From Pseudoclavibacter sp. Marseille-Q3772 (GTDB lineage: Bacteria > Actinomycetota > Actinomycetes > Actinomycetales > Microbacteriaceae), in NCBI RefSeq assembly GCF_916618895.1, contig NZ_OU745391.1, forward strand, positions 1,798,001 through 1,862,000: a stretch of DNA of 64,000 nt. Direction: 5' to 3'. Below are positions 32,592-40,635 of the stretch, in pieces; the first letter of the stretch is position 1; each line of letters opens with the position of its first letter. The notes beneath the pieces are model-generated. The model worked only from the letters and a program-made list of their open reading frames with translations, ran no database searches and was not told where the DNA came from. A program made the position numbers and the translations under genes.

Positions 32592-35042
32592 ATGGAGATT
32601 TTGCCCGCAGACCCACAGCCCGCCCGCTCAGGTGCCGCGCCGATCCCCGGCGATCTCGTTGACGGCCTCAACCCGCCGCAGCGCGAAGCCGTCGAGTATC
32701 GAGGGGATGCACTACTGATCGTCGCGGGCGCCGGCTCGGGTAAGACTCGGGTGCTGACGCACCGCATCGCCGGCCTTATCGCCACCCACGAGGCGTGGCC
32801 GAGCCAGATCCTCGCCATTACCTTCACGAATAAGGCGGCGACCGAGATGCGTGAACGTGTCGGCGCGCTCCTGGGCGAAACCGTCGAGGGGATGTGGATC
32901 TCCACCTTCCACTCGGCGTGTGTGCGCATCCTGCGTCGAGAAGCCGAACGATTCGGCTACCCGGCCAGCTTCACGATCTACGACTCGGCCGACTCCAAAG
33001 CGCTGATGAAACGCATCGTCAAATCACTCGAGGCGGAATCGCTCGGCGTGACCGTGCCGCAGGCCATGCACCGCATCTCCGGCTGCAAGAACGAGTTGAT
33101 CGACCCCGACGGGTTCGCCCGAACGGTCGATATAACGAACCCGCGCGAACAGCTCATCCTTGAAATTTATCGGCAGTACCAACGAGAGCTGCAGCGCAAT
33201 CGCGCCTTCGACTTCGATGACCTGATCGCGCAGACGGTGTGGCTCTTCCGCGCCCACCCGCAGATCGCGGCGCTGTATCAGCGACGATTCCGCCACATCC
33301 TTGTCGACGAGTATCAGGACACGAACCATGCGCAGTACGCGCTGATTCGCGAACTCACCCGTCCCGTTGCCCCCGAGAACGTACCGCTCGACACCCGCCT
33401 CGCCCTCGACGTCGATGGCAGTATTCCGGCGGCTTCCCTCACGGTCGTTGGTGATTCTGACCAGTCGATCTATGCGTTCCGCGGCGCCGATATTCGTAAT
33501 ATCACCGAGTTTGAACGCGACTTCCCGGGCGCGAAGACGATTCTGCTCGAGCAGAACTACCGCTCCACACAAACCATCCTTGACGCCGCAAACTCCGTGA
33601 TTGCGAATAACTTCGATCGGCGGGTCAAGAACCTGTGGACTGCTGCCGGCGCCGGCGCGAAAATCCAGGGCTATGCGGGGCGTTCCGCGCATGATGAGGC
33701 ACAGTTCGTTGCCGATGAGATCCACCGGCTCCACGACCAGGGCGTCAGCTACAACGAGATGGCGGTGTTCTACCGAACGAATGCGCAGACGCGTGCGCTC
33801 GAAGAGATCCTGGTTCGCGCGGCGGTGCCGTATCGGTTGATCGGTGGCACGAAGTTCTATGAGCGTGCCGAGGTGAAGGATGTGGTCGCGTACCTGATGG
33901 CGGTCGCGAACCCGAACGACGACCTCTCGGTGCGGCGCATCGTGAACTCGCCCAAGCGCAGTATCGGTCCGGCGAGCGAGACGGCGATTGCCAATTACGC
34001 GGCGGCGAATGAGCTGTCGTTTCGCGAGGCGCTCGGGCACGCGGATGCATTGGGCTTCGGTCCGAAGCTCCGTAGCGCAGTTGCCGAGCTCGCGGAGGCT
34101 CTTAACGAAGCGGAAGAATCGATCACCCCGGAGCGCCCGACCGGAGCGGTTCCGGTTGCGCAGATGCTGGAACGGCTGCTGGACAGGGTCGGGTACATCA
34201 CTGCCCTGCGCGCCACCGGCAATCCGCAGGATGATGCCCGGGCCGATAACGTCGTTGAGTTCATTAACGTCGCCAAGGAGTTTGATAAGCACAACCCGAG
34301 TGGCACCCTCATTGAGTTTCTCACTGAAGTCGCGCTCGTTGCGGCGGCGGATGAGATCGATGACGAGTCGGGTGTGGTGTCGCTGATGACGCTGCACACT
34401 GCCAAGGGACTCGAATACGACACCGTGTTTATTACGGGTGTCGAAGAGATGCTGCTGCCGCACAAGATGAGCGTGGATGAACCCGGTGGGCTCGCCGAGG
34501 AACGGCGGCTGTTCTATGTGGGCATTACGCGGGCACGCAGGATGCTGCACATGACGATGGCCGTGTCTCGAACTCAGTTTGGTGAGACCGCACCGTCGCT
34601 GCCGAGCAGGTTCCTGGATGAGGTGCCGAGCGAATTGATTGACTGGAAGCAGTCGCCTGCTGAGCTGGTCGCCGCACCGGTCTTTGGTGGTGCGGGGTAT
34701 CAACGCGGCGGCTACGGCACCGGATACGGTCGTGCAGGGCGCGGCGGCACCGGGGGAGCCGAATCCGGGCCGTTGCGATCGGGACGCGGTCTCAAGAGCG
34801 AGTTCAAACCCACGCGCGGTAACCGCAGCTTTGATAACCAGGTCACCGGCCGAGTCACGGATAATTCTGATCTGGTGCTGGAATCCGGTGACCGGGTGCG
34901 GCATAGCGACTTCGGTGAGGGCACGGTGCGTGTGGTGCTCGGAACGGGTACGAAGAAAATTGCCGAGGTGGACTTCGACACTGCCGGACGCAAGAAGCTA
35001 CTCATCAAGATCGCGCCGCTGGAGAAACTCTCCGAGGCATAA
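32592..35042 (+). CDS. pcrA: ATP-dependent DNA helicase UvrD/PcrA
   Basis: An 816-residue SF1A helicase for nucleotide-excision repair and replication-fork maintenance. Motifs: LNPPQREAV (Q motif), AGAGSGKTRVLTHR (Walker A), TFTNKAATEMRERV, LVDEYQDTN (Walker B), VGDSDQSIYAFRGA, LEQNYRST, LMTLHTAKGLEYD and EERRLFYVGITRAR. The C-terminus has a Gly-rich stretch (GGYGTGYGRAGRGG) and a PcrA Tudor-like domain (GDRVRHSDFGEGTV). Length is normal and the gene is intact. Its last ~38 coding bases recur at 38967, beyond the bacteriocin operon. Confidence 0.97.
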   Translation: MEILPADPQPARSGAAPIPGDLVDGLNPPQREAVEYRGDALLIVAGAGSGKTRVLTHRIAGLIATHEAWPSQILAITFTNKAATEMRERVGALLGETVEGMWISTFHSACVRILRREAERFGYPASFTIYDSADSKALMKRIVKSLEAESLGVTVPQAMHRISGCKNELIDPDGFARTVDITNPREQLILEIYRQYQRELQRNRAFDFDDLIAQTVWLFRAHPQIAALYQRRFRHILVDEYQDTNHAQYALIRELTRPVAPENVPLDTRLALDVDGSIPAASLTVVGDSDQSIYAFRGADIRNITEFERDFPGAKTILLEQNYRSTQTILDAANSVIANNFDRRVKNLWTAAGAGAKIQGYAGRSAHDEAQFVADEIHRLHDQGVSYNEMAVFYRTNAQTRALEEILVRAAVPYRLIGGTKFYERAEVKDVVAYLMAVANPNDDLSVRRIVNSPKRSIGPASETAIANYAAANELSFREALGHADALGFGPKLRSAVAELAEALNEAEESITPERPTGAVPVAQMLERLLDRVGYITALRATGNPQDDARADNVVEFINVAKEFDKHNPSGTLIEFLTEVALVAAADEIDDESGVVSLMTLHTAKGLEYDTVFITGVEEMLLPHKMSVDEPGGLAEERRLFYVGITRARRMLHMTMAVSRTQFGETAPSLPSRFLDEVPSELIDWKQSPAELVAAPVFGGAGYQRGGYGTGYGRAGRGGTGGAESGPLRSGRGLKSEFKPTRGNRSFDNQVTGRVTDNSDLVLESGDRVRHSDFGEGTVRVVLGTGTKKIAEVDFDTAGRKKLLIKIAPLEKLSEA

Positions 35043-35074
35043 TCCACCGACCCGGCCCGCCGCCGGAGCGAGTC
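35005..35074 (+). repeat. direct repeat, left copy (pcrA 3' end)
   Basis: Begins TCAAGATCGCGCCGCTGGAG inside pcrA and runs past the stop. The first 45 bases are identical to 38967-39011, and the next ~25 (CCGGCCCGCCG then GGAGCGAGTC) are similar with a two-base change and an indel. Confidence 0.95.
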
Positions 35075-35116
35075 GCCGCCGAGCTGCGACACCCGGAGGG
35101 TGCACTGTTGAGCAGA

Positions 35117-36205
35117 TTACTGGCGGGTTTGCACAAGCCGCAGTAGGAGCATTGGATTAAACAGCGCAAGCACACAGCCGCTTGCGGTCAGCGCGCCGAT
35201 TGCTCCGAAACAGGGAGCAAGAACGAGTATCGGCCACACATCGGTGATGAACCCGGACGGCGCCGCACATAGCGTGGATAGCAGTATTGCGCTTAGTGCA
35301 CCGGTGAGTATCCACGCGGAATGCTGGATCAAATGGATCCGGAGAATGTCGATTCGCGAGGCGCCCAAGTGCAAGCTGGTGGCAATTGACAATCGTCGTG
35401 GCCAGTATGCGAATAGGCCGATTACTAGTCCGATAGCTGCAGCGAACAGGTGGTTCCAGGAGCTTGGCCGCGATTGGAACTGCTGTTCGCCGTGGAGGTC
35501 TTGGCCCAAAGAGGAATTCAACTGAGTGTATTCGGTCGTGATCTCGCCACCACTATCCGAATCAGTGGGCGTGCGCTCATCCACTGTGGTGGCTAGCAGC
35601 GAATTCGGTTGGGCTATTTCTGGCCAGCTTCGTAGCCAGCATTCATCGAACGGCTGGCTGTAGTCGAGGGTTGGCTGAACGAGCGCATACGCCAACCCGC
35701 CGCGTCTGCCGTCGTTTGGGTAGGCATAGGTGCCGGCGATTGGCACGTCACCGGTTGCAGCGGTCAGCGTATTCATACCGTGGGGTAGGAGTTCCGCAGC
35801 CTCCGGGCCGAGGAAGCCGCCGTTTGTATGCTCTGATGTCGGCGTCGAGTTCAGCAGCAAGGGAGCGCTTGCGGTCGTAGACACGATCGGAATTGGTGCA
35901 GAGCTGGCTGTTGCCGCGCGAAGATAATCGTGACCTTCACGGATCGCTGCCGCGGTCACACCAGGATACCGATTCAGTTGCTCGCATGCAGCGCCATCGA
36001 TGCGCCCGGGGGAGGCAACGATGCGAACATTCGCGTCGGCACTCTGAAAGCGTTCAGCTTGTTGCAACAAACCGATTACGGCTTGGCTGTCCTGCCAGGA
36101 CAGCACGAATAGTGCGAAGCCGAATAGCGCGGCCAAGATTCCTGCTCGGGTTGTGCCGCTTCGAAGGTCAAGCAGTGCTTCGCGCCAGATAACCCGCCGG
36201 TTCAC
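35117..36205 (-). CDS. FtsX/MacB-like ABC permease of the bacteriocin operon
   Basis: A 362-residue membrane protein with the layout of MacB-type permeases: one N-terminal helix (GILAALFGFALFVLSW), a large extracytoplasmic domain (about residues 45-255) and three C-terminal helices (NHLFAAAIGLVIGLFAYWP; SAWILTGALSAILLSTLCA; ILVLAPCFGAIGALTASGCV). It starts at GTG 36205, overlapping the ATPase stop by four bases. I do not recognise the extracytoplasmic sequence. With the ATPase and the membrane-fusion-like protein it probably exports or confers immunity to the bacteriocin. Confidence 0.75.
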   Translation of the reverse strand: MNRRVIWREALLDLRSGTTRAGILAALFGFALFVLSWQDSQAVIGLLQQAERFQSADANVRIVASPGRIDGAACEQLNRYPGVTAAAIREGHDYLRAATASSAPIPIVSTTASAPLLLNSTPTSEHTNGGFLGPEAAELLPHGMNTLTAATGDVPIAGTYAYPNDGRRGGLAYALVQPTLDYSQPFDECWLRSWPEIAQPNSLLATTVDERTPTDSDSGGEITTEYTQLNSSLGQDLHGEQQFQSRPSSWNHLFAAAIGLVIGLFAYWPRRLSIATSLHLGASRIDILRIHLIQHSAWILTGALSAILLSTLCAAPSGFITDVWPILVLAPCFGAIGALTASGCVLALFNPMLLLRLVQTRQ

Positions 36206-36825
36206 CGTGCTTCCCGTCCTTGGTCGTCGAGCGACAATTGCGCGTCGCAAGCGTTGGCCGTATCTGGGTCGTGCGTGGCAATGAGCGTTGTGACCCCGGC
36301 ATCTGCGAGTGCCGCAATGGCTGCATTCACGGAGCTCGCGTTCGAACGATCAAGCTGTGCGGTTGGCTCGTCGATTAGCAGCAGGTCTGGTTCGGATGCG
36401 AGCGCGCGGGCAAACATGAAGCGTTGCCCTTCTCCACCGGACAAGATCGAGAAGGGCCGACGGTCAGTCAGATACCCCAAACTCAATGTTTCGCAGATTG
36501 ATTGTGCATCATCCATGGCAGCAGTGAGCGAATATCCGCGGGCGAGCATTGGGAATGCAATTTGATCGATAGCAGCACGGGAAGGTACCCCGTATGGATT
36601 CTGCGGGATCCACTGAACAGCGTTGATGCCGTGTTTTCGAATCTCACCTGATGTCGGTGAAATCCAGCCGGCAATCAATGACAGCAAGGTGCTCTTGCCG
36701 CATCCGCTCGGTCCGGTAATCGCGAGACGTACGCCGCGTTTGATCTGAACGTTGAGCCCCTGGAAGAGGTAGCTATCGTCATGAAATCGATGGCCAAGAT
36801 CGATTAGCTCTACGGCAGTATTCAT
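36202..36825 (-). CDS. ABC transporter ATPase of the bacteriocin operon
   Basis: A 207-residue MacB/LolD-like nucleotide-binding protein. Walker A is GPSGCGKSTLLS, the Q-loop lies in WIPQNPYG, the signature is LSGGEGQRFMFARAL (LSGGE rather than the usual LSGGQ), Walker B is LLLIDEPTAQLD, and the H-loop is LIATHD. The start ATG overlaps the preceding stop as ATGA and the stop overlaps the permease start as GTGA, so the three genes are tightly coupled. Lactococcin-972-type loci normally carry such an ATPase. Confidence 0.9.
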   Translation of the reverse strand: MNTAVELIDLGHRFHDDSYLFQGLNVQIKRGVRLAITGPSGCGKSTLLSLIAGWISPTSGEIRKHGINAVQWIPQNPYGVPSRAAIDQIAFPMLARGYSLTAAMDDAQSICETLSLGYLTDRRPFSILSGGEGQRFMFARALASEPDLLLIDEPTAQLDRSNASSVNAAIAALADAGVTTLIATHDPDTANACDAQLSLDDQGREAR

Positions 36826-37871
36826 GCACACGACCCGTCATCATTGGGGCGCTTAACGCTGGTGTCTAATGGTGACGATGAGCGAACAATCGTCGACCCC
36901 AGTTCATTGCCGAGAATCTCCACCTCTTGAATGCCATGCGAAGTGCATACCTTCCCGTGCTGCAGATCAATGGGGATCACGGCTGCCGGCGGCAGCGAGT
37001 AGGCAGTGACAGGCGTATTCAGGCTTGCTTGCACAGTCATAGCCGGGTCGTCTTCGCCGAGCTGACTTAACTGGCTCAGTAGTGCGTTCTCGTTATTAAG
37101 GCGAGTAATTGTTTCCGCGGAAAGCTGCCCTTCGGTAAGTTCTTTAGCCCTTACTGGCACACCGGTTCCACCGATTTCAAGTGTGCGATCCCCCTCGAGG
37201 GGTCGTTCTACCGGCTCGAAGGTGATGCTCTCGAAGGTTCCGGCGAAGGTGATCAGCGGCTCGTCCGGGGCCACGGTTTGGCCGAGTGGTGCTGTGCACT
37301 CTCGAACCGCCGCTGCGGGCGCAGGTAACCATATGAGGCGTTGAACCGGGACATCGTTTCCGGGGCCAACGTGTGTGAGTTCACGGACCTTGTCTATGAG
37401 CACGGAATCAACGGTTTCTCCGGGCTCGATCTCGTTGCCAAGGTCGATCAGTGCATCACGCAGTGCACGCACGTCGTTTCCAGTGTCTCCAAGTTTGAGC
37501 GGACGCCAGAGCGGTGTTTTCGTGTGGAGCGCGGTATACGGTTGCTCATTCAGGCGAAGAACCTCCTCGCCTGATTTGATGACGGCGTTTGCTCGGCAGC
37601 GCGTCGCGGTGATTCTCCCCGCGTCGGGGCTGAGTGCAGTGGTGTTGCCGCCAATGCCGATTGTTGCCTCTAGTGAAAGGGGGTCGTCGAAGGACACCTC
37701 TTCGACGGGATAGCTGTCTACCTCGGTTTGGGAGCGCAGCGTGGGCGGCGGCGCCACTGGAAACAGCAGGCTGCCAATGACCGCGCCCAACAGCATCGCG
37801 CAGCTGAGAATCGCAATAACTCCTACGCGGTCGAGGGGGCGAAGGCCAGTTTTACGCTTGAGCGAAGGCAT
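36822..37871 (-). CDS. membrane-fusion-like protein with peptidoglycan-binding motif
   Basis: A 349-residue protein with an N-terminal signal-anchor (LDRVGVIAILSCAMLLGAVI) and an extracytoplasmic part. PLKLGDTGNDVRALRDALID is the PG_binding_1 signature. The flanking GRITATRCRANAVIKSGEEV and RECTAPLGQTVAPDEPLITF resemble the split lipoyl/barrel halves of HlyD/MacA-type adaptors. Actinobacterial lactococcin-972-like clusters often carry this arrangement. The start ATG 37871 lies 20 bases inside the end of the lipoprotein gene and has AGGA upstream. It presumably couples the ABC permease to the cell wall. Confidence 0.75.
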   Translation of the reverse strand: MPSLKRKTGLRPLDRVGVIAILSCAMLLGAVIGSLLFPVAPPPTLRSQTEVDSYPVEEVSFDDPLSLEATIGIGGNTTALSPDAGRITATRCRANAVIKSGEEVLRLNEQPYTALHTKTPLWRPLKLGDTGNDVRALRDALIDLGNEIEPGETVDSVLIDKVRELTHVGPGNDVPVQRLIWLPAPAAAVRECTAPLGQTVAPDEPLITFAGTFESITFEPVERPLEGDRTLEIGGTGVPVRAKELTEGQLSAETITRLNNENALLSQLSQLGEDDPAMTVQASLNTPVTAYSLPPAAVIPIDLQHGKVCTSHGIQEVEILGNELGSTIVRSSSPLDTSVKRPNDDGSCA

Positions 37872-38475
37872 GCTTCGGATCCTGTTGGCAGCGAGACTCG
37901 ATTGAGTACTGTTGTGTTTCGTCAACCTTCCAGGTTTCTGCCCAATCGGGTTTCTTGTAGTCCTCACCGGTAAACCCTGATGGCACCAGCCCTCCGCGGA
38001 CCAGACATGCAGCGACTTCTTCGCTGAGGTCCTCATTATTCGGATTGTTTCGAGTCACGAAATACAAGTGGATGACGGTATCTACGCCTTCGCTGCGAGA
38101 ACAATCATCCGCGAGTCGATTGGCGGTTTCGTTGTCAATCGAGTCTGGAAATGAGAAGTCGTAGCCTCCGCCCGGCTTGAAGTCATCAAATGCAATGTTG
38201 TGTCCAGCAAGGCAGTTTCGGAAGCGATCGGTCACGACCTGTTTCTCAGCATCGCTGACCTGCTCATCGGCGAGCATCTCTCGAACCTCGTCGTCCGGGG
38301 CAAGGCCATACCTGAAGCGAAACTCTTCGGCCCATGGGCCGGTAAATTCGGGTGCTGGGTTCGGTGCACCCGTGTCCGCCGCATCCGTTTGTTGACCTTG
38401 CGTGGAAGCACAAGCGGCAAGTAGCGGCGCGGTGAGCAGGAGCACCGACGCGATATTGATCAACCGTTTCATCAT
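37852..38475 (-). CDS. lipoprotein of the bacteriocin operon
   Basis: A 207-residue secreted lipoprotein. The signal peptide MMKRLINIASVLLLTAPLLA is followed by the lipobox LLAAC, with Cys22 as the lipidated residue. The mature part is acidic (DDEVREMLADEQVSDAEKQ) and contains three further Cys residues (FRNCLAGH, ADDCSRSEG, AACLVRGG) and a fourth near the C-terminus (SRCQQDP), which could form two disulfides. No named family is recognised. Its place between the precursor and the transporter genes suggests an immunity or lipid-II-shielding role, which is inference. Two ATGs in tandem are possible starts. Confidence 0.75.
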   Translation of the reverse strand: MMKRLINIASVLLLTAPLLAACASTQGQQTDAADTGAPNPAPEFTGPWAEEFRFRYGLAPDDEVREMLADEQVSDAEKQVVTDRFRNCLAGHNIAFDDFKPGGGYDFSFPDSIDNETANRLADDCSRSEGVDTVIHLYFVTRNNPNNEDLSEEVAACLVRGGLVPSGFTGEDYKKPDWAETWKVDETQQYSIESRCQQDPKHAFAQA

Positions 38476-38533
38476 GTTCTACCTAGAGGGTGTGGTGGGC
38501 TTACCGCTCGGTGAGCCCACCACAGGTGGTTAA

Positions 38534-38863
38534 TTAGTAGTTGTAGTAGAAGGCTTCGTTCTGTCCGTGTCGGAATATGTTGGTTGCGGCCTTTCGCTGT
38601 GCCCTCGACCAGGTATTGGGCCCGGCGTCTGCAGATCGGGTGCAGTTTCCGCGGCTACAAGCGGTTGAACGGTGTCTTCGTTTCGGGTGATGGTAGTCGG
38701 AATAAACGTAGATGGTGCTTGACGGCTCACGTAGACCGTAGTTCCATGTGCCACCTTCTGGATGTGACGTAACGGCGGAGGATGGATCTGGCGTGGACAG
38801 CGGCAAAGCGAGACCAAACGCCAGAGCAGAAATCATTATCAATGTGGTTCGGGTGGTTTTCAT
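38534..38863 (-). CDS. lactococcin 972-family bacteriocin precursor
   Basis: A 109-residue secreted peptide. The signal peptide (TTLIMISALAFGLALPLS) is probably cleaved near SSA (about residue 30). The mature part has the hallmarks of lactococcin 972: an N-terminal GGTWNYG (38-43), YSDYHH (54-59), a central basic region and the aromatic terminus AFYYNY (104-109), against EGTW, YSNYHH and SFYYNFW in the lactococcal peptide. That peptide binds lipid II and blocks septum formation. A Cys pair at 69 and 74 (CSRGNC) is not found in lactococcin 972. ATG 38863 follows GAGG. It is the first gene of a five-gene operon. Confidence 0.88.
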   Translation of the reverse strand: MKTTRTTLIMISALAFGLALPLSTPDPSSAVTSHPEGGTWNYGLREPSSTIYVYSDYHHPKRRHRSTACSRGNCTRSADAGPNTWSRAQRKAATNIFRHGQNEAFYYNY

Positions 38864-38966
38864 TGCTACCTCGTTGTATGCGCTATGAAAAAGTGAATTG
38901 TGCCGGCAGGAGCAGCATATGACTCGCAACCCAAAGCTGGGACGCGTTTTCAATAACGATTGTGTT

Positions 38967-39037
38967 TCAAGATCGCGCCGCTGGAGAAACTCTCCGAGGC
39001 ATAATCCACCGCCACCGGCCCGCCGTTGGAGCGAGTC
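38967..39037 (+). repeat. direct repeat, right copy (pcrA 3' end)
   Basis: The second copy of the pcrA terminus, including its TAA stop, followed by the sequence that leads into the DUF6350 gene. 45 bp identical to 35005-35049, then a similar stretch to 39037. It encodes only the last 12 pcrA codons and has no function of its own. Confidence 0.95.
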
Positions 39038-39066
39038 AAGCACCCTCGACTACGCTCGGTCTCGCT

Positions 39067-40635
39067 ATGTCACGCCTCGCCACCATCCTTGCCTCGCTCG
39101 CCGACACCGCGCTCGCGGTTGTGGTTGGTGTCGTCGTGCCACTGGCCATCGGCACGATCGGTTGGTTCGCATCCGGCAGCTACCGCTCGGTGGACTGGGA
39201 AGTACTCCTCACCGTCGCGCTGGCGATCTGGACGCTCGGCCTCAATAGCGCCGTCGGTATCGAAATCACCCCGGATGTGTATCCCTCGCTCGGCCTGGAC
39301 CAACCCTTCGGGTTTGTGGTCGCTATCGCACCCATGCTGGTGACCGCCCTGGTCGTGTGGTTCGGGTATCGAACCGGGGCGCGCATCCTGAACGACGATG
39401 AAGAAGCGCCGTGGCTCGCCGTGGCAGCAAGTATCTGCGCCTTCCCACTACTGAACTTCATCGCGCTGTCAATTTCGCCGCTGGACAACGTTCGGCTGGA
39501 ACCCAACGGCGTACTCGTCGGTGGAACATTATTGTGGCTCGCCGCACTTGCGCTGGGTCTACGCGCCTGGGAATACATCCCCTGGGAGCGACTGCTGGGG
39601 GAGCGCACCGGCGCCGTGCTGACGCAACTTCGCCTGAGCGTACGGCACGCCGTCGGGCTAGTGACCGGTCTTGCGGCCGCAGCAACGGTGCTCATGCTCG
39701 TCGTACTGGTCTTTCGCTTCGGTGAGGTCATCGGTCTCATGCAGGTACTACAGCTTGGGCCTTGGGGCGTCATCGCACTCGGGTTGGTGCAGCTGGCGTA
39801 TCTACCAACGTTCATTGTTTGGGCGATGAGCTGGATGCTCGGGGCAGGTTTTGATCTCGGTATCGGTTCACATGCCGGTCCCGGCGGTACCGATGCCGGT
39901 CCACTGCCGGTGGTGCCGATGTTCGGGCTCATCCCCGAGGGTATTGAGCCAGTGTGGTGGGCGATCGTAGCCGTACCCTTTGCAATCGCAGTGGTCTTTA
40001 CGTTATGCAGCCGCATCTTCGGCCTGGTCAGTGATGAGCAAACGTGGTGGCAGCGACTGGTGGTCCCCGCAGCTGGGTCAATGCTTGCGGCGTTGATGAT
40101 CTGGATCCTCGCCTACCTCTCCCAGGGCGGTCTCGGGCCCGGTCGCCTCGTGCAGTTCGGACCGAATGCCGGGCTCATGCCGCTCGCGGCGCTCGCAGTA
40201 TTCCTCGCCGGTTCGATCATCGGCACACTGGTGCCGCTACACGCGCTCGACCCATCGCGCGGGCCGGTGCATCAAGACGAGGGTGCGAGCGAAGGCGACG
40301 ACGAGCACACGACAGCGCAATCACATCCGCACTCATCACATACCGAACGGGAGGCCAAGACCACACGCGGCTGGCGCGATCGGCTCGCCGCTCCTGTCTT
40401 TGCGCCGTGGGATGAACCCGAATACGACCCCGATAGCGAGGCAGACGAAGACGATGAGTACGCCGAACTCGATGAACTCTTCGGCTCGCGTGCCGCTACA
40501 CCCGAGTCTGAAGCAGACGCGAAGACGACCGACGATGACTCGACGTCGCGCGCTTCGCGAGGTAAACGCGATACGGCGCTGCGCGATGTACTCGATCGCC
40601 CGGGGGAACCCGATATCTACGCCGACCTCGACTAA
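39067..40635 (+). CDS. DUF6350-family polytopic membrane protein
   Basis: A 522-residue membrane protein with about ten hydrophobic helices (for example ALAVVVGVVVPLAIGTIGWF and GLVTGLAAAATVLMLVVLVF) and a soluble, very acidic C-terminal tail (YDPDSEADEDDEYAELDELF). The segment AGFDLGIGSHAGPGG and the position immediately upstream of purN match the DUF6350 family conserved in Actinobacteria; mycobacterial relatives have been linked to cell division. ATG 39067 is used; the longer frame upstream is read-through of the pcrA repeat. It ends 20 bp before purN. Confidence 0.82.
   Translation: MSRLATILASLADTALAVVVGVVVPLAIGTIGWFASGSYRSVDWEVLLTVALAIWTLGLNSAVGIEITPDVYPSLGLDQPFGFVVAIAPMLVTALVVWFGYRTGARILNDDEEAPWLAVAASICAFPLLNFIALSISPLDNVRLEPNGVLVGGTLLWLAALALGLRAWEYIPWERLLGERTGAVLTQLRLSVRHAVGLVTGLAAAATVLMLVVLVFRFGEVIGLMQVLQLGPWGVIALGLVQLAYLPTFIVWAMSWMLGAGFDLGIGSHAGPGGTDAGPLPVVPMFGLIPEGIEPVWWAIVAVPFAIAVVFTLCSRIFGLVSDEQTWWQRLVVPAAGSMLAALMIWILAYLSQGGLGPGRLVQFGPNAGLMPLAALAVFLAGSIIGTLVPLHALDPSRGPVHQDEGASEGDDEHTTAQSHPHSSHTEREAKTTRGWRDRLAAPVFAPWDEPEYDPDSEADEDDEYAELDELFGSRAATPESEADAKTTDDDSTSRASRGKRDTALRDVLDRPGEPDIYADLD

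Follow-up and report, generated by a model that had tools for sequence, protein, structure and literature searches.

Cis-mobilizable elements (CIMEs) of 1.2 to 13 kb are on record at the 3' ends of housekeeping genes. Integrative elements that enter and restore a gene's 3' end leave att-like gene ends around their cargo, and loss of the integrase turns such elements into CIMEs (PMC7563491). We analyzed 64,000 nt of Pseudoclavibacter sp. Marseille-Q3772 (NZ_OU745391.1, positions 1,798,001 to 1,862,000), called here the window, within which all positions are counted. In it, a lactococcin-972-type bacteriocin operon has a copy of the pcrA 3' end on either side. We compared the window's genome (G000, a single contig of 2.01 Mb) with those of 10 congeners, of which G001 is the nearest. 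Our preferred reading, to which we give a probability of about 0.5, is that the locus is a decayed, integrase-less integrative mini-element, similar to a CIME, at the pcrA 3' end, and that sucCD was lost at the same locus.

With the streptococcal CIMEs that lie in composite islands at the 3' ends of rpsI, fda, and rpmG, the element shares a small cargo between att-like repeats, the 3' end of a protein gene as target, and the lack of an integrase of its own (PMC7563491). It differs from them in belonging to another phylum, in its pcrA target, in having a bacteriocin operon as sole cargo, and in the loss of the neighboring sucCD; no tandem integrative and conjugative element or integrative and mobilizable element was seen at the window's element. 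Phage 21 offers a second likeness, as its incoming DNA provides an alternative 165-bp coding end of icd (PMC4129442), compared with 70 bp in the window and 163 bp at another locus analyzed here, L238. Use of the pcrA 3' end as an integration target was not apparent in the literature listings that we searched. Phage 21 has its own integrase, whereas the window's element has no mobility gene. An account of a Frigoribacterium genome places none of its biosynthetic gene clusters in predicted islands (PMC12823222).

Two copies of the pcrA 3' end

The two repeat copies lie where an earlier note on this DNA had placed them (Table 1), with their starts 3962 bp apart (35005 to 38967). They are 94.4% identical over 71 columns (107 bits by BLASTN). 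As the note had described, the first 45 bp are identical; of these, 38 bp belong to pcrA, stop codon included, and 7 bp lie past it. The remaining 25 or 26 bp, which it had called diverged, contain three substitutions and one 1-base gap, all past the pcrA stop. A 261-base query spanning the pcrA end matched at the two copies and nowhere else in the genome, and the best repeat in control windows of the same geometry (n = 111) scored 48 bits. Direct repeats bound both ends of the element and one of them restores the pcrA 3' end, as in a CIME or a decayed integrative element. The nature of the repeat, a gene's 3' end, and the intact state of pcrA support the mini-element, and the note's picture of a cassette placed at the pcrA stop, with the gene end duplicated and pcrA preserved, agrees with these results. 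The difference in base composition that it reported is mild: G+C is 57.2% in the element and 61.6% in the window, and 5.6% of 3.9-kb windows are as low, a count that includes those overlapping the element.

The PcrA C terminus reads EKLSEA (35021-35042), an extension present in both repeat copies; the protein ends in EKL in 8 of the 10 congeners, in EKLS in one, and in EKC in one. Apart from weak 20-bp matches in two, no congener has a repeat of the pcrA end downstream of the gene. The palindrome in the pcrA end folds no better than shuffled sequences.

In the mechanism that we favor, the 3.9-kb bacteriocin and exporter operon would have been the cargo of a small integrative element, brought in when this element recombined into the pcrA 3' end. 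The element would have carried its own copy of that end, keeping pcrA whole (left copy) and pushing the native end to the far side (right copy). Its integrase would since have been lost, leaving two att-like gene ends around the cargo as a CIME-like remnant, and the sucCD operon would have been deleted, at the same locus, up to a promoter-like block before the DUF6350 gene. Three parts of this account are inferred: the origin of the window's repeat through an integrase, the assignment of the left copy to the element, and the link between deletion and insertion.

Two other explanations bear on the same repeat. Transposition with a target-site duplication would place direct repeats around DNA of differing composition, and we give it almost no credence: transposase models match none of the five genes, inverted repeats are absent from the element ends, and the 70-bp repeat is imperfect, with a length that varies between cases. 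Recombinational import, which the earlier note had suggested, is possible but rather unlikely. DNA from a donor, bringing a pcrA end of its own, would pair with the resident pcrA on one side and be joined illegitimately on the other (homology-facilitated illegitimate recombination), or a single crossover would integrate a circle that carries a 3' fragment of pcrA, making an integrase unnecessary. Such recombination, as well as circularization with a single crossover, has been described experimentally (PMC3240628), and the identical coding part and diverged spacer of the window's repeat are as between two orthologous ends. However, the PcrA C terminus shares a DTAG motif with the nearest congener and thus shows no clear foreign signature.

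The locus in congeners and the sucCD genes

In 9 of the 10 congeners, pcrA is followed, across a gap of variable content, by sucC, sucD, and then DUF6350; in G002 this order is interrupted by contig ends. The right repeat copy does lead into the DUF6350 gene, as the earlier note observed, but the ancestral pcrA-DUF6350 junction that it envisaged was a misjudgment, as sucC and sucD lie between the two genes in those nine. In G001, pcrA and sucC are about 155 bp apart without a cassette, and the state of sucCD also differs from the window. The gap in the other eight readable congeners spans about 2.7 to more than 6 kb with varied genes, instead of which the window has the cassette. At pcrA, the window's cassette was found in 0 of 9 readable congeners. 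This result and the varied genes in eight of the nine gaps agree with the note's reading. The next gene after DUF6350 is purN in the fetched DNA of 7 of the 9, and was not seen for G007 and G008.

The sucCD pair appears to have been lost from the window's genome, which the earlier note had not noticed. The G001 SucC protein gave no match in G000 at an E value of 1e-3; by tblastn, the same protein finds six full-length congeneric sucC genes (8.6e-108 to 2.7e-110). For sucD, TIGR01019 has no match in G000 and matches 10 of 10 congeners (nine above the cut-off) and 11 of 14 control genomes. All 11 genomes of the genus, including the window's, yielded matches to the C-terminal domains of 2-oxoglutarate dehydrogenase and the succinate dehydrogenase flavoprotein. 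With sucCD apparently missing, the window's genome is a natural case of both enzymes being kept without succinyl-CoA synthetase. PF13336, which we take to be the family of Cat1, matches 0 of the 11 genomes and 6 of the 14 controls. Pathogenic corynebacteria are likewise Actinobacteria without sucCD, and cat1 has been proposed as a substitute there, in contrast to the lack of PF13336 matches in the window's genus (PMC2830990).

In G001, SucC (L033:7095-9184) is 50 to 51% identical to the proteins of six other congeners, which are 87 to 98% identical among themselves; its SucD, from the same region, is 70 to 72% identical to those of other congeners, with 88 to 99% among these. Such low identities indicate that succinyl-CoA synthetase is already strongly diverged in the nearest relative.

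A promoter-like block resembling CTCGACTACGCTC is recognizable, in varied form, in all 10 congeners and ends about 9 bp before the DUF6350 start codon. In the window, the block starts 7 bp past the end of the right copy, and pcrA-derived DNA adjoins it. A repeat end this close to the deletion junction would be expected if the deletion cut an existing right copy, and may also be chance.

Between pcrA and sucC, 5 of the 10 congeners (L034, L035, L038, L039, and L040) carry an opposite-strand permease-ABC module in the cassette's orientation, suggesting that the genus has long had exporters at this position. The modules could favor a cassette that is itself old at the pcrA site, with a secondary or chance repeat. 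We regard this as very improbable, given that a comparison by BLAST only detects no resemblance of these MacAB-like modules to the permease, adaptor, or lipoprotein of the window, just generic ABC similarity, and that the repeat far exceeds chance (107 bits against 48 in the best control).

Gene ends around related cassettes

We examined 87 cassettes, namely the window, the 46 strongest other matches in the family, and 40 of the stronger matches in the order, some of them cut by contig ends. Direct repeats of at least 54 bits across the operon were found in 16 of the 87 (13 of 47 in the family set and 3 of 40 in the order set), compared with 2 of 127 control windows (Fisher P 1.5e-5, relatedness ignored). 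Since the controls are pcrA neighborhoods and not accessory DNA, the comparison does not set bacteriocin cassettes apart from islands in general. The two control windows that reach this score do so without a gene end (L143 is palindromic-like, and L177 is low-complexity coding DNA).

By inspection, 6 of the 16 repeats are the 3' end of a neighboring gene, and because L204 and L231 share one site, these make five independent sites. Apart from pcrA, the targets are the 3' ends of a PAD_porph gene, which we take to be agmatine deiminase (L204 and L231; 49 bp, 98 and 94%), a PF05618 zinc-protease gene (L238; 163 bp, 94%), a 241-aa membrane-like gene (L208; 148 columns, 73%), and tRNA-Lys (L319; 42 bp, 88%, 54.5 bits). 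We rejected gene-end status for L207, L237, L245, L246, and L321, where the cassettes sit, by eye, between palindromic or repeated non-coding DNA, and for L218, L224, L228, L241, and L325, where the repeats are paralogous genes (based on length, identity, open reading frames [ORFs], or translations; by eye only for L325). Two repeats fall under the threshold, L225 (45.5 bits, palindromic-looking) and L323 (46.4 bits).

The likelihood of a decayed integrative element is raised somewhat by gene-end framing of homologous cassettes at four other targets; at one of these, tRNA-Lys, an integrase-like fragment lies inside the repeats. This fragment, in L319, is a 117-aa ORF with matches to phage integrases (2.3e-6 for phrog_216, and 6.8e-6). 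In the genus of L238, 8 of 26 loci hold the gene 1 to 683 bp from DNA that lies right of the L238 right copy (83 to 90% identity over 808 to 1358 bp). This leaves no room for a cassette and indicates an empty site, and L238 is the only locus for which clean empty sites were found; the remaining 18 loci have no recognizable downstream similarity and are uninformative. L204 and L231 differ by 6 mismatches across about 5.2 kb, while flanking 250-bp bins are mostly 82 to 95% identical between the two genomes, pointing to recent transfer of the island between two species. Both the empty site and this exchange support the mini-element.

An island swapped between species at one site is also consistent with recombinational import. 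Import would account for spread to the same gene, but not for initial arrival at five different genes, and the integrase-like fragment of L319 argues against it. The unrelated targets and the varied repeat lengths (42 to 163 bp, with 148 columns for L208) would in turn suit local duplication during homology-free insertion, in which a staggered break is filled in or template switching returns upstream, producing long target duplications of variable length. This is unlikely, as all five sites are gene 3' ends with no 5' end among them, and one is a tRNA, a usual integrase target.

Several observations weigh against the mini-element. No integrase was found among the five genes between the window's copies by Pfam and NCBIfam, as the earlier note had already remarked, nor among the 25 of 37 Pfam families listed for chosen ORFs of L204, L208, and L238. 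The integrase-like ORF of L319 is unrecognized by Pfam, and the repeat there is weak. Five different targets would require several integrases, and 81 of the 87 cassettes lack a gene-end repeat. Past the pcrA stop, similarity runs for 25 bp with mismatches and no exact core. The L204 repeat spans further genes beyond the bacteriocin operon. Finally, 6 of 7 differences between the L238 copies are at third codon positions, which also fits functional gene ends of two strains; this bias is not decisive, since an intact copy is under selection anyway.

Homologues of the L208 gene in other genomes of its genus are only 28 to 36% identical, too distant to single out its native copy. The ABC gene of this cassette, in G003, is split into two ORFs (L208:5137-5739), so the cassette may be decaying. 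A TIR-domain gene (PF08937) moves along with the L204/L231 island. Upstream of the bacteriocin operon, within the exchanged DNA (L204:3751-4784), a ThsB-like TIR gene and a small membrane-like gene of a PHROG family are a possible defense pair. In three genomes of another genus (L219, L221, and L248), lactococcin-972-type operons lie downstream of pcrA, co-directional and 0.2 to 3.9 kb away, with the pcrA-end repeat absent.

Some small bacteriocin cassettes are thus framed by a neighbor's gene end, at five unrelated targets, and this framing may reflect one way for antimicrobial operons to spread when no mobility genes are visible. A wider generalization seems doubtful to us, namely that lactococcin-972-type operons travel as integrase-free mini-elements, which are mobilized in trans or through recombination and land on many different gene 3' ends, and that here the landing accompanied the loss of succinyl-CoA synthetase, with oxidative tricarboxylic acid cycle enzymes flanking the missing step and a bacteriocin taking its place.

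The bacteriocin operon

Table 1. Features of the pcrA locus, with positions in the window
Feature	Position	Strand	Evidence
pcrA, intact, protein end EKLSEA	32592..35042	+	Pfam UvrD domains and PcrA tudor domain; C terminus compared with congeners
Left repeat copy (last 38 bp of pcrA including stop, plus 32 bp)	35005..35074		BLASTN and alignment
Permease, predicted MacB/FtsX/LolC-type fold	35117..36250	-	Structure model and Foldseek; homologues start at about 36205 (from P0001)
ABC ATPase	36202..36831	-	PF00005, 1.1e-25
Adaptor protein	36822..37871	-	Homologues in related operons
Lipoprotein, self-protection role guessed	37852..38475	-	Lipobox by eye; homologues beside adaptor in other loci
Hairpin between bacteriocin and lipoprotein genes	38491..38524		Inverted repeat; DNA fold z -3.89, 2/200 shuffles equal
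Lactococcin 972 family bacteriocin precursor	38534..38863	-	PF09683, 5.1e-15, 56.2 bits; TIGR01653, 39.7 bits (cut-off 32.1)
Right repeat copy of pcrA end	38967..39037		BLASTN and alignment
Promoter-like block before DUF6350, similar in congeners	39045..39057	+	Block like CTCGACTACGCTC
DUF6350 gene, preceded by sucC-sucD in relatives	39067..40635	+	PF19877, 6.2e-63

The five opposite-strand genes between the repeat copies form a lactococcin-972-type operon, as first proposed, reading from right to left bacteriocin, lipoprotein, adaptor, ABC ATPase, and permease. Curated models recognize two of them, the bacteriocin and the ATPase; the lipoprotein, adaptor, and permease are unnamed by Pfam and NCBIfam. 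The 109-aa precursor passes the cut-offs of both lactococcin 972 family models and weakly matches the solved Lcn972 structure 2lgn (E value of 0.043). The ABC ATPase is not placed in the L_ocin_972_ABC subfamily (TIGR03608, 99.7 bits against a cut-off of 254.85). The lipoprotein has no family match below 0.05 in Pfam or NCBIfam, and the window's adaptor has no Pfam match of its own; PG_binding_1 is matched by 12 of 21 adaptor family members, not by this one. The hairpin between the first two genes is perhaps a partial terminator that leaves bacteriocin mRNA in excess.

We modeled the permease fold on the cluster protein P0001, which is 99% identical (predicted local distance difference test score of 87.7). 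Two further proteins, P0002 and P0021 (61 and 69% identical), each lie on a contig of 32,015 bases. The model suggests a MacB/FtsX-type layout, with one N-terminal helix, an extracellular domain, and three C-terminal helices. Foldseek matched it to a pneumococcal non-canonical ABC transporter (5xu1), MacB, the HrtBA heme exporter, and LolCDE, with E values down to 1.5e-11 and modest template modeling scores of 0.2 to 0.54. Lipid II binding is established for Lcn972 (PMC9964109); by analogy, the operon may secrete a lipid II-binding bacteriocin via a MacAB-like pump, with the lipoprotein protecting the producer. The likeness to lactococcin 972 systems consists of the bacteriocin family model and the nearby ABC transporter (PMC9964109; PDB structure 2lgn), whereas the window has a predicted five-gene bacteriocin operon with adaptor, lipoprotein, and predicted MacB-fold permease.

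We found no carriers of the permease among viral contigs (using one peptide pattern) or plasmid records. One phage-labeled record of 7.2 kb matched at 29%, and we rejected it as its ORFs looked bacterial by eye. Homologous operons, whole or partial, occur in other genomes of the family: the adaptor query matches 101 of 398 family genomes at an E value of 1e-3, many of them weakly, and a 21-row adaptor model matches 145 of 396 genomes of the order at 1e-10.

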